In this document: positions 1,054 through 3,943 of the stretch, piece after piece | How the letters are laid out: every line of letters starts with the position of its first letter | Position numbering within the stretch: position 1 is the first letter of the stretch | Source: Yinghuangia soli | Lineage (GTDB): Bacteria; Actinomycetota; Actinomycetes; Streptomycetales; Streptomycetaceae | Length of the DNA: 42,388 nucleotides | Reading direction: 5' to 3' | NCBI RefSeq assembly: GCF_021502675.1 | Contig: NZ_JAKFHA010000002.1 | Coordinates: forward strand, 1 to 42,388 | Made by a program: the position numbers and the translations under genes | Notes under the pieces: generated by a model | Databases searched by the model: none | What the model was told of the DNA's origin: nothing | The model's input: only the letters and a program-made list of their open reading frames with translations

Positions 1054-1578
1054 GTGGCCGAGAAGCTGTACGCCACCCTCAAGACCAACCACGGGGACAT
1101 CGTGGTCGAGCTGTTCCCGAACCACGCCCCCAAGACGGTGGCGAGCTTCGTGGGGCTGTCCGACGGCACCCGTGAGTGGATCGACCCGGCGACCGGCGAG
1201 CCCGGCCAGGGACCGCTGTACAACGGCGTCGTCTTCCACCGGGTGATCAGCGGCTTCATGATCCAGGGCGGCGACCCGACCGGCACCGGCCGCGGCGGCC
1301 CGGGCTACAAGTTCGCCGACGAGTTCCACCCGGACCTGGCGTTCAACAAGCCCTTCCTGCTGGCGATGGCCAACTCGGGCCCCGGCACCAACGGCTCGCA
1401 GTTCTTCATCACGGTCGGCGAGACGCCGCACCTGAACCGCCGGCACACCATCTTCGGCGAGGTCGCCGACGAGGCGAGCCGCCAGGTCGTGAAGGCCATC
1501 GCGGCGACCGAGACGGGTCCCCTGAACCGCCCGGTGAACGACGTGGTCATCGACGAGATCGCCATCGAGAAGCGCTGA
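1054..1578 (+). CDS. Peptidyl-prolyl cis-trans isomerase (cyclophilin type)
   Basis: A 174-residue single-domain cyclophilin that should catalyse cis-trans isomerisation of Xaa-Pro bonds in the cytoplasm. No signal peptide is present. Family motifs appear in order: FHRVISGFMIQGGDPTGTG (catalytic Arg and the Phe-x-x-Gln-Gly-Gly core), a SQFFIT segment, and LNRRHTIFGEV near the C terminus. I chose the GTG at 1054 because GGAAGG lies 7 bases upstream and the protein then begins just before the first beta strand. The open frame continues upstream to 682, but that part does not resemble the family. It sits 7 bases before the rhomboid gene and is likely co-transcribed with it. In actinobacteria this gene usually belongs to the crgA-pknB neighbourhood. 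Confidence 0.95.
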   Translation: MAEKLYATLKTNHGDIVVELFPNHAPKTVASFVGLSDGTREWIDPATGEPGQGPLYNGVVFHRVISGFMIQGGDPTGTGRGGPGYKFADEFHPDLAFNKPFLLAMANSGPGTNGSQFFITVGETPHLNRRHTIFGEVADEASRQVVKAIAATETGPLNRPVNDVVIDEIAIEKR

Positions 1579-1585
1579 CGCCGCG

Positions 1586-2491
1586 TTGAACTCCATCCAC
1601 GGCGACGGACCGGCCGGATCCCCGCAGGGGCCGGCCGGTCCTCCGGTGTGCTACCGGCACCCGGGTCGCGAGACGCACATCCGCTGCACCCGGTGCGAAC
1701 GCCCGGTGTGCACGGACTGCATGGTGAGCGCGTCGGTCGGCTTCCAGTGCCCGGACTGCGTCCAGGCCGGCGGCCGCACGGTGCGCGAGGCGCGCACCAT
1801 AGCGGGCGCCCGGGTGCGCAACACCGACGGCAGCGCCGGCGCCACGGGCGCGGTCGTCACCAAGACGCTGATCGGCCTCAATCTGGCCGTGTGGATCCTC
1901 GTGCTGGTGGTCGGCGACAAGGTCGTGGACCGCTTCATACTGCTCGGCCGCGCGGTGGTCGGCGGGCAGTGGGCCGGCATCGCGGAAGGCGAGTGGTACC
2001 GGCTGTTCACCGCGGCGTTCCTGCACCAGGAGCCGTGGCACATCCTCTTCAACATGTTCGGGCTGTGGATGCTCGGCCCGCCGCTCGAGGCGATGCTGGG
2101 CCGGGTCCGCTTCCTGACCGTCTACCTGGTCTCCGCCCTCGGCGGCAGCGCGCTGTCGTACCTGATCGCGGCGCAGAACCAGGGTTCGCTGGGCGCGTCC
2201 GGCGCGGTCTTCGGGCTGTTCGGCGCGGCGCTCGTGGTGGGCCGGCGGATGAACGCGGACCTGCGGCCGCTGATCGCGCTGCTGGTGATCAACCTGGTGA
2301 TCACGTTCCTGAACGTGAGCCGGATCGACTGGCGCGCACATGTCGGCGGCCTGGTGGTCGGCGCCCTGGCCGCGGCGTGCATGGTGCACGCTCCCAAGAA
2401 CCACCGGGTGGCGTTCCAGGTGCTCTCGATCGCGGGCATCGTCGCGGTGCTCGTGGGGATCGTGCTGTTCCGGACGTCCCAGCTCAGCTGA
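1586..2491 (+). CDS. Rhomboid family intramembrane serine protease with N-terminal zinc-binding motif
   Basis: A 301-residue protein from a TTG start, 7 bases after the cyclophilin stop. Residues 22-58 hold a B-box-like set of Cys and His residues (C22, H25, C34, C37, C42, C45, C55, C58) that probably binds zinc in the cytoplasm. The rhomboid domain follows from about residue 93, with roughly six hydrophobic segments. The HILFNMFGLW motif supplies the conserved His-Asn region. The nucleophile Ser205 lies in GASGAVFG and the partner His252 in RAHVGGLVVG, so the dyad is complete and the enzyme should be active. It would cleave membrane proteins within the bilayer; the substrate is unknown. The start is uncertain by a few codons because no strong ribosome site is visible, and coupling to the upstream gene is plausible. 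Confidence 0.93.
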   Translation: MNSIHGDGPAGSPQGPAGPPVCYRHPGRETHIRCTRCERPVCTDCMVSASVGFQCPDCVQAGGRTVREARTIAGARVRNTDGSAGATGAVVTKTLIGLNLAVWILVLVVGDKVVDRFILLGRAVVGGQWAGIAEGEWYRLFTAAFLHQEPWHILFNMFGLWMLGPPLEAMLGRVRFLTVYLVSALGGSALSYLIAAQNQGSLGASGAVFGLFGAALVVGRRMNADLRPLIALLVINLVITFLNVSRIDWRAHVGGLVVGALAAACMVHAPKNHRVAFQVLSIAGIVAVLVGIVLFRTSQLS

Positions 2492-2561: not shown

Positions 2562-2586
2562 GCGTCGGGGGCCTGGCGCGCTAGAG

Positions 2587-2638
2587 TTATCCACAGGCTT
2601 TGCCTCGTTATCCCCATTGTGGATAACTCTGTGGATGC
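2587..2638. promoter_or_regulatory. Cluster of DnaA-box-like sites
   Basis: Four 9-mers related to the DnaA box lie within 52 bases: TTATCCACA at 2587-2595 (perfect consensus), TTATCCCCA at 2608-2616, TGTGGATAA at 2618-2626 (perfect, reverse strand) and TGTGGATGC at 2630-2638 (reverse strand, near match). The first and third form a perfect 12-bp inverted repeat, 2584-2595 with 2618-2629. The stretch is A/T-rich for this genome and non-coding, between the convergent rhomboid and crgA genes. DnaA-box clusters outside oriC are known in Streptomyces. I recall one in the cosmid-H69 region of S. coelicolor, which carries this same gene neighbourhood. Function as a DnaA-binding or titration site is inferred. 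Confidence 0.75.
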
Positions 2639-2741: not shown

Positions 2742-2993
2742 CTACTTCCACTGCGTGGAGACACCGAAGCCGGCGGCGATGAAGCCGAAGCCGACCACGA
2801 TGTTCCAGTTGCCCATCGACTCGACGGGGAAGTCGCCGTTGGTCACGTAGTAGACGACGATCCACAGCAGGCCGATCAGGAACAGCGCCAGCATGAACGG
2901 CGCGATCCAGCGGCGCGTGTCCAGCTTTATCGCCGTCTTCTTGTCCGGCGGCGGCGTGAAGTCGGACTTCTTGCGAATCCGGGACTTCGGCAC
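2742..2993 (-). CDS. crgA: Cell division inhibitor CrgA
   Basis: An 83-residue membrane protein that in Streptomyces and mycobacteria takes part in septum formation, acting on FtsZ rings in the former and binding divisome proteins in the latter. It starts [16 protein letters not shown], a basic and proline-rich cytoplasmic tail typical of the family. Two membrane segments follow: about residues 31-49 ([19 protein letters not shown]) and 62-79 ([17 protein letters not shown]). I chose the GTG at 2993 because AGGAGAG lies just upstream and the length matches the family; the longer open frame to 3245 does not fit. It is divergent from the DUF881 gene across an intergenic region with an inverted GACAC pair. 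Confidence 0.95.
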
Positions 2994-3154: not shown

Positions 3155-3943
3155 GTGCGTTTGCCCGGTGTGCGCTTGCCTGGTTCCCCGGAGGGAGCTG
3201 CCGGCCGATCCGGATCGGCCTGGCGAGCGATCGTACCCCGCTCACTGGCTCTTGTGGTCTTCGGTCTTGCCGGTCTCCTCTTCTGGATCAGCGCCAATAC
3301 CTCGCACGGCACCAACCTGCGCAACGACAGCCAGTCGATGGAGTACCGGGACCTGGTCCGCAAGCAGGGCCAGCACAACGCCGAGGTCGACCGCGAGGTC
3401 ATCGAACTGGGCGACGAGGTCGACGCGCTGCGCCGCGCGCAGGTGGACGACCCGGCCGCGCAGGCCCGCATCGACGCGCTCAACGGCCCGGCCGGGCTGG
3501 CCCCGCTGAGCGGCGCCGGGCTGACCGTCACGCTCACCGACGCCCCGCCGGACGCCACCGCGCGCATCCCCGGCATCCGCGAACCCACCGCCGACGACCT
3601 GGTGGTGCACCAGCAGGACATCCAGGGCGTGGTCAACGCCCTGTGGGCGGGCGGCGCGCAGGGCATCCAGATCATGGACCAGCGGCTGGTGGCCACCAGC
3701 GCGGTGCGCTGTGTCGGCAACACCCTGATCCTGCACGGCCGGGTGTACTCGCCGCCGTACGTCATCACCGCGGTCGGCAATGTGGACAACCTGCGCCGGG
3801 CCCTGGACGACAGCGACGCGGTCTACAACTACACGACGTACGTCGACGCCTACGGGCTCGGCTACAAGGTGGAGGACCGCAAGCAGGTGAATCTCCCCGG
3901 GTACACGGGCCCTCTCGATCTGCAGTATGCGAAAGTCTCCTGA
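3155..3943 (+). CDS. DUF881 family membrane-anchored extracytoplasmic protein
   Basis: A 262-residue protein from a GTG start, with GGAGGGT about 9 bases upstream. A basic N-terminal tail precedes one membrane segment at about residues 31-46 ([16 protein letters not shown]). A coiled-coil-like stretch follows (about residues 55-95, [21 protein letters not shown] region), then an alpha/beta domain containing [20 protein letters not shown] and [21 protein letters not shown], both characteristic of DUF881. This topology places the domain outside the cell. The family is widespread in Gram-positive bacteria beside division or sporulation genes (YlxW/YlxX-like in Bacillus), but its function is not known. 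Here it lies between crgA and the sortase genes, which suggests an envelope role. Confidence 0.9.

Follow-up and report, generated by a model that had tools for sequence, protein, structure and literature searches.

The convergent gap between the rhomboid and crgA genes of Yinghuangia soli contains a dense cluster of DnaA boxes, and such boxes recur behind the 3' end of crgA across the class. The crgA-gap site is probably a DnaA sink that lies near oriC without being part of it and restrains initiation, and it probably exemplifies a module shared across the actinomycete class. The sites of the cluster are rare, its position and geometry recur in relatives, and its conservation is deep. Clusters of this kind are already known from Streptomyces coelicolor, and what appears to be new here is the reach of the crgA cluster across the class. 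This recurrence suggests an old replication brake rather than a curiosity of Streptomyces.

The stretch of DNA analysed (the window) is 42,388 nucleotides long. It begins where contig C12 begins, and its positions 1-28 consist almost entirely of C and G, which may be an artefact of the assembly edge. The crgA gene (2742-2993, minus strand) encodes 83 amino acids, starts with GTG and was identified by a match to Pfam PF06781 (E 3.7e-29). It faces a rhomboid-family gene with an uncertain start codon (1586-2491, plus strand; PF01694, E 6.6e-37), next to which lies a gene for a cyclophilin-type peptidyl-prolyl isomerase as part of a conserved neighbourhood (1054-1578, plus strand; PF00160, E 3.4e-43). 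The rhomboid and crgA genes converge, with stops at 2491 and 2742, and leave an intergenic gap of 250 bp (2492-2741) that holds the cluster. The boxes are therefore non-coding, as the preliminary description had it.

A sequence was counted as a box if it differed from TTRTCCACA by at most one mismatch. Box C (TTATCCACA, exact; 2587-2595, plus strand), box B (TTATCCCCA, one mismatch; 2608-2616, plus strand) and box A2 (TTATCCACA, exact; 2618-2626, minus strand) were located by motif matching. The weak box A1 (GCATCCACA, two mismatches; 2630-2638, minus strand) was read from the sequence during repeat analysis, and many relatives carry a better box at its place. Thus, the two perfect opposite boxes and two near matches described earlier between 2584 and 2638 were all recovered. 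Boxes A2 and B are separated by 1 bp and form a near-palindrome with arms at 2607-2616 and 2618-2627. The inverted repeat noted before is also present, with the perfect boxes in its arms, but it measures 13 bp instead of 12 bp and is perfect over that length (2583-2630; arms 2583-2595 and 2618-2630).

Matches with at most one mismatch number four in the whole 42-kb window, where 1.04 would be expected; the one outside the gap (3781-3789) falls within a DUF881 gene. Among 2000 dinucleotide shuffles of the 250-bp gap, none reached three boxes and only two contained two or more, which agrees with the earlier statement that the boxes are denser than chance. The 50-base cluster sequence is present once in the 9.7-Mb assembly. 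Exact TTRTCCACA occurs at 56 sites of this assembly, the reversed-motif control at 14. Judged by the shuffles, permuted motifs and flank controls, a chance origin of the cluster is very unlikely.

Conservation in the family was examined at crgA loci of named genomes found in a CrgA search, of which the best 80 of at least 503 confirmed loci were used. Going by their titles, 79 of these belong to Streptomyces, Embleya or Yinghuangia and one to "Actinobacteria bacterium OK074"; Streptomyces sp. F001 contributes two. The exact inverted TTATCCACA pair was found 3' of crgA in 79 of these best 80 loci, and in 71 of the same 80 the second strand also carries a distal TTGTCCACA. The preliminary description had named conserved 9-mers in relatives as the test of its own proposal, and such conservation is evident. 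The only one of the 80 loci without boxes is that of S. triticagri (L044), in whose 5.2 kb no rhomboid or cyclophilin match was found. At L044:2750-3100, a G+C-rich inverted repeat and an apparent kinase gene come after crgA, in place of the cluster and of the rhomboid gene. When 101 Streptomycetaceae sequences were aligned, with L044, L047 and L073 omitted, the boxes looked by eye like the most strongly conserved islands within the gap.

A strict inverted-pair pattern was matched in 104 of 121 family genomes, and its reversed control in none. All 17 genomes that missed the pattern have at least three boxes 3' of crgA, in a stretch of about 360 nt from its end. Not every match is located at crgA: that of genome G171 lies away from it, other members of the same genus have similar G+C-rich spacers and may have their matches elsewhere too, and some genomes of genus g85 show, among the matches listed, a second match at another place. 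Since strict-pattern matches are not always at crgA, the claim for the family is based on the crgA-flank data instead.

Some of the additional pairs have features of their own. In the g85 genomes G182 (L227:2953-3010) and G178 (L228:3023-3080), the second inverted TTATCCACA pair has a start-to-start distance of 47 bp and is 0.92-0.95 Mb away from the first match; in both genomes, a similar 458-aa protein is encoded nearby. In G162, G170 and G205, matches of this span have TGATCACATGATC in the spacer. A 42-bp inverted-pair element occurs three times within 20 kb in G211 (C1:3954758, 3967975 and 3974634), perhaps as a result of local duplication.

Beyond the family, a class sample of 118 genomes was used, in 112 of which CrgA was found, the contig of the window being the 112th; one genome with less than 150 nt of sequence downstream of crgA was still counted. 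In the 300 nt that follow the crgA stop, at least one box is present in 104 of these 112 genomes, two or more in 92 (shuffle mean 0.5), three or more in 59 and an exact box in 73. At the family level, 35 of 37 families have a box at crgA and 32 have two or more. The total of 285 boxes compares to a mean of 7.9 (maximum 15) in 20 dinucleotide shuffles, and to a mean of 6.7 for 300 permuted motifs, where the maximum of 71 belongs to the highest controls, which share part of the DnaA-box motif. The box density in successive 100-nt bins after the crgA stop is 17.3, 6.1 and 2.1 per kb, and ranges from 0.12 to 0.25 per kb in every other bin, be it beyond 300 nt, upstream of crgA or in crgA itself. 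The eight genomes of the 112 that have no box in the 300 nt after the stop belong to four families (f3, one genome; f25, four; f26, two; f37, one). Outside of the class, 57 genomes yielded a CrgA match; in 20 of these, drawn from the stronger matches, a box was found in 14 and two or more in seven, a weaker signal than within the class.

Where a rhomboid or cyclophilin match lies no more than 1.6 kb away, a box is present at crgA in all 77 class genomes; among the 35 without such a match, the number is 27. The cluster adjoins the 3' end of crgA, not its promoter. The earlier suggestion that the site ties replication control to the crgA division locus is borne out as physical linkage only. Because of this position, and because boxes persist in those 27 of 35 genomes that lack the usual neighbour, the association suggests that crgA offers a convenient gap more than that it is regulated from there.

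The spacing of the boxes is also recurrent. Measured from start to start, a distance of 10 bp between inverted boxes was found in 38 genomes (18 families), one of 13 bp between direct boxes on the plus strand in 33 genomes (14 families), and one of 23 bp between inverted boxes in 33 genomes (17 families). Many families have a common geometry of box, 13 bp, box, 10 bp and inverted box. A three-box template built on this geometry, with TTRTCCMCA for each box and 27 scored positions, was matched with at most four mismatches in 41 of 112 genomes and in none of 109 control stretches, the best of which had nine. This geometry is not universal, as 71 of the 112 genomes exceed four mismatches, including the site of the window with seven. 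In the latter, boxes A2 and B stand in the template relation, A1 is weak and 12 bp away, and box C is extra.

In 25 genomes selected for few contigs, with circular wrap assumed where needed, crgA lies 13.1-132.6 kb from dnaA without exception; in four family members the distance is 21.6-55.6 kb. The dnaA and crgA genes of Y. soli are located on separate contigs, so that its own distance to oriC is inferred from these relatives. The dnaB gene lies 23.0-95.5 kb from dnaA, in 18 of the 25 genomes on the opposite side from crgA. The genes dnaA, dnaB and serS were identified by Pfam matches, while pheA, purC, dnaN and the transporter gene were named from a reading of the translations.

Further clusters were found around some of these genes. 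At least one box was found in the 700 bp ahead of the dnaB domain in all 26 genomes, Y. soli included, and two or more in 25. Upstream of serS, two or more boxes are present in four of the 26 genomes, all of genus g2 (presumably Streptomyces), single boxes occur in two others, and no cluster was found there in Y. soli. Hence, of the three apparent clusters of the 2006 study discussed below, two look old and one recent. In the assembly of Y. soli, the region upstream of dnaB (C24:71598-71861; L094:8599-8862) features seven boxes, four of them exact. Five exact boxes lie within 204 bp between purC-like and purL-like genes (C12:294760-294963; L095:8761-8964), and this site could be a strong cluster of the genus's own that replaces the absent one upstream of serS. 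Two inverted pairs of exact boxes, 31 bp each and 1.43 kb apart, were observed at C6:69728-69758 and 71160-71190 (L093). The gap between the organism's own dnaA and dnaN contains 15 boxes, of which two are exact TTGTCCACA and none exact TTATCCACA, compared to two exact TTATCCACA in the crgA-gap cluster.

This box-rich dnaA-dnaN gap bears on whether the site is itself an origin or the relic of an older or second one. In favour of a relic, relatives have boxes close to the dnaA region. Nevertheless, the dnaA-dnaN gap with its many boxes is elsewhere in the assembly, and the crgA gap has no strongly AT-rich unwinding stretch, with a G+C content of 0.63 overall and of 0.45 in its lowest 40-mer. 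Identity with oriC was rejected on these grounds, and a relic is extremely improbable. An RNA hairpin, for example a two-way terminator without a T-tract to which the likeness to DnaA boxes would be secondary, is hardly more plausible. For the window site, folding is better than that of shuffles on both strands (z -4.07 and -3.40), but inverted boxes would give such folding by themselves. In 97 of the 101 aligned sequences, those with the exact inverted pair, the six positions outside the 9-mers pair no more often than expected (observed/expected 84/84.0, 36/46.4, 63/64.7, 33/25.8, 14/14.9 and 29/28.1). Position 1 is nearly invariant and carries little information on pairing, and 122 of 2000 shuffles gave an excess as large as the only one observed, at position 4. 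A scan of the gap detected no T-tract terminator, and there was no significant covariation beyond the 9-mers. Moreover, the commonest inverted pair of the class (10 bp) leaves 1 bp between its arms, which permits no loop unless the stem is opened, and all boxes lie on a single strand in 19 genomes. The terminator scan and the covariation counts hence disfavour a hairpin or terminator, for which very little probability remains.

DnaA bound at the site might instead mainly influence transcription in the vicinity, by forming a roadblock that keeps the opposed transcripts of crgA and the rhomboid gene apart or by regulating an adjacent gene. The gap is convergent in the window, and in relatives the rhomboid or cyclophilin genes that were detected run against crgA. 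Also in line with local action are the missing T-tract terminator between the genes, the presence of a box in 77/77 genomes with such a neighbour against 27/35 without one, and the location of the other class-wide cluster upstream of dnaB, where promoter control is possible. However, clusters also occur where the next gene is apparently co-directional with crgA according to rough ORF calls (G107, G022 and G024), boxes are confined to one strand in 19 genomes and occupy both in 73, and proximity to oriC is needless for local gene control. Taking both sides into account, we consider local action unlikely. A DARS-like site that recharges or loads DnaA and promotes initiation appears more doubtful still. 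DARS1 likewise consists of a few boxes in a fixed geometry, and the direction of an effect is not readable from sequence alone. Yet DARS sites lie farther from oriC, and a position near oriC suits early doubling of the site. In addition, the S. coelicolor clusters are cited as repressing initiation in the accessible parts of PMC4585315, PMC10950094 and PMC5742627.

The DnaA sink described at the outset is thus the reading that we prefer. Judging from the motif, DnaA would bind the strong boxes, and a site near oriC would be copied soon after initiation. By analogy with datA and the Bacillus subtilis clusters, the doubled sites would then bind DnaA and perhaps help to inactivate it, free active DnaA would fall and the next initiation would be delayed. 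As two or three boxes hold few DnaA molecules, titration alone may be weak.

To our knowledge, it is poorly understood how actinomycetes prevent re-initiation. Boxes kept at crgA in 35 of 37 sampled families would offer a concrete, deletable site for this question in many species, and a cluster described in one streptomycete would prove to be old and class-wide. With more reserve, falling somewhat short of an even chance, we suggest that the oriC-proximal modules at the crgA 3' end and upstream of dnaB are an ancient actinomycete pair for class-wide negative control of DnaA, to which Streptomyces later added the strong pheA-serS (D78-like) cluster, and that the geometry of box, 13 bp, box, 10 bp and inverted box nucleates a DnaA oligomer distinct from the complex at oriC. 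The DnaA domain I dimer, described as conserved across Actinomycetes in the available text of PMC13270200, could help to bridge the boxes. Among the papers listed in a literature search, mostly without subscription papers, there was no report of a class-wide crgA-linked DnaA cluster; none is mentioned in the accessible parts of PMC4585315, PMC10950094, PMC5742627, PMC4285127, PMC3411110, PMC4255298, PMC13270200, PMC13152386, PMC13121528 and PMC6265350.

Among known systems, the three DnaA-box clusters of S. coelicolor are the closest to the crgA-gap site. They were reportedly described as H69, H24 and D78 by Smulczyk-Krawczyszyn and colleagues in 2006 (J Bacteriol 188:6184), and D78, not H69, is said to have shown the highest affinity and the deletion phenotype. 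We take the published H69 cluster to lie in the crgA-rhomboid gap of S. coelicolor, on cosmid H69; by gene context, the cluster upstream of dnaB presumably fits H24 and the pheA-serS cluster D78. A DnaA-box cluster in the crgA-rhomboid gap, as expected of an H69 orthologue, is present in the window and in its relatives. The preliminary description had pointed to the cosmid-H69 region; the match to that cosmid is presumed, while the synteny is supported, crgA being SCO3854 in S. coelicolor according to the accessible part of PMC4255298. This synteny makes it very probable that the crgA-gap cluster and the H69 cluster are orthologues. The proposal that such clusters limit replication firing is plausible by analogy, as the available passages of PMC4585315, PMC10950094 and PMC5742627, citing the 2006 work, state that the S. 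coelicolor clusters repress untimely initiation. The deletion phenotype, however, reportedly concerned D78, not H69. The accessible text of PMC4285127 lists the high-affinity box of S. coelicolor as TTGTCCACA, not TTATCCACA. Whereas H69, H24 and D78 are known from S. coelicolor, the clusters at crgA and upstream of dnaB are here found class-wide, in contrast to the D78-like cluster upstream of serS, which has two or more boxes only in the four g2 genomes among 26. Like the crgA-gap site, datA of Escherichia coli is a non-coding DnaA-box cluster outside oriC, and the several boxes of the crgA gap, denser than chance, resemble it in this respect. It restrains initiation according to the available parts of PMC4585315 and PMC5742627, but uses an IHF site and DnaA-ATP hydrolysis and has a different gene context. 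The DnaA-box clusters of B. subtilis (Okumura 2012, as cited in the accessible text of PMC4585315 and PMC5742627) repress untimely initiation and are close to oriC (PMC4585315). Although they belong to a different phylum, the crgA-gap cluster would resemble them in repressing initiation and in its proximity to oriC.
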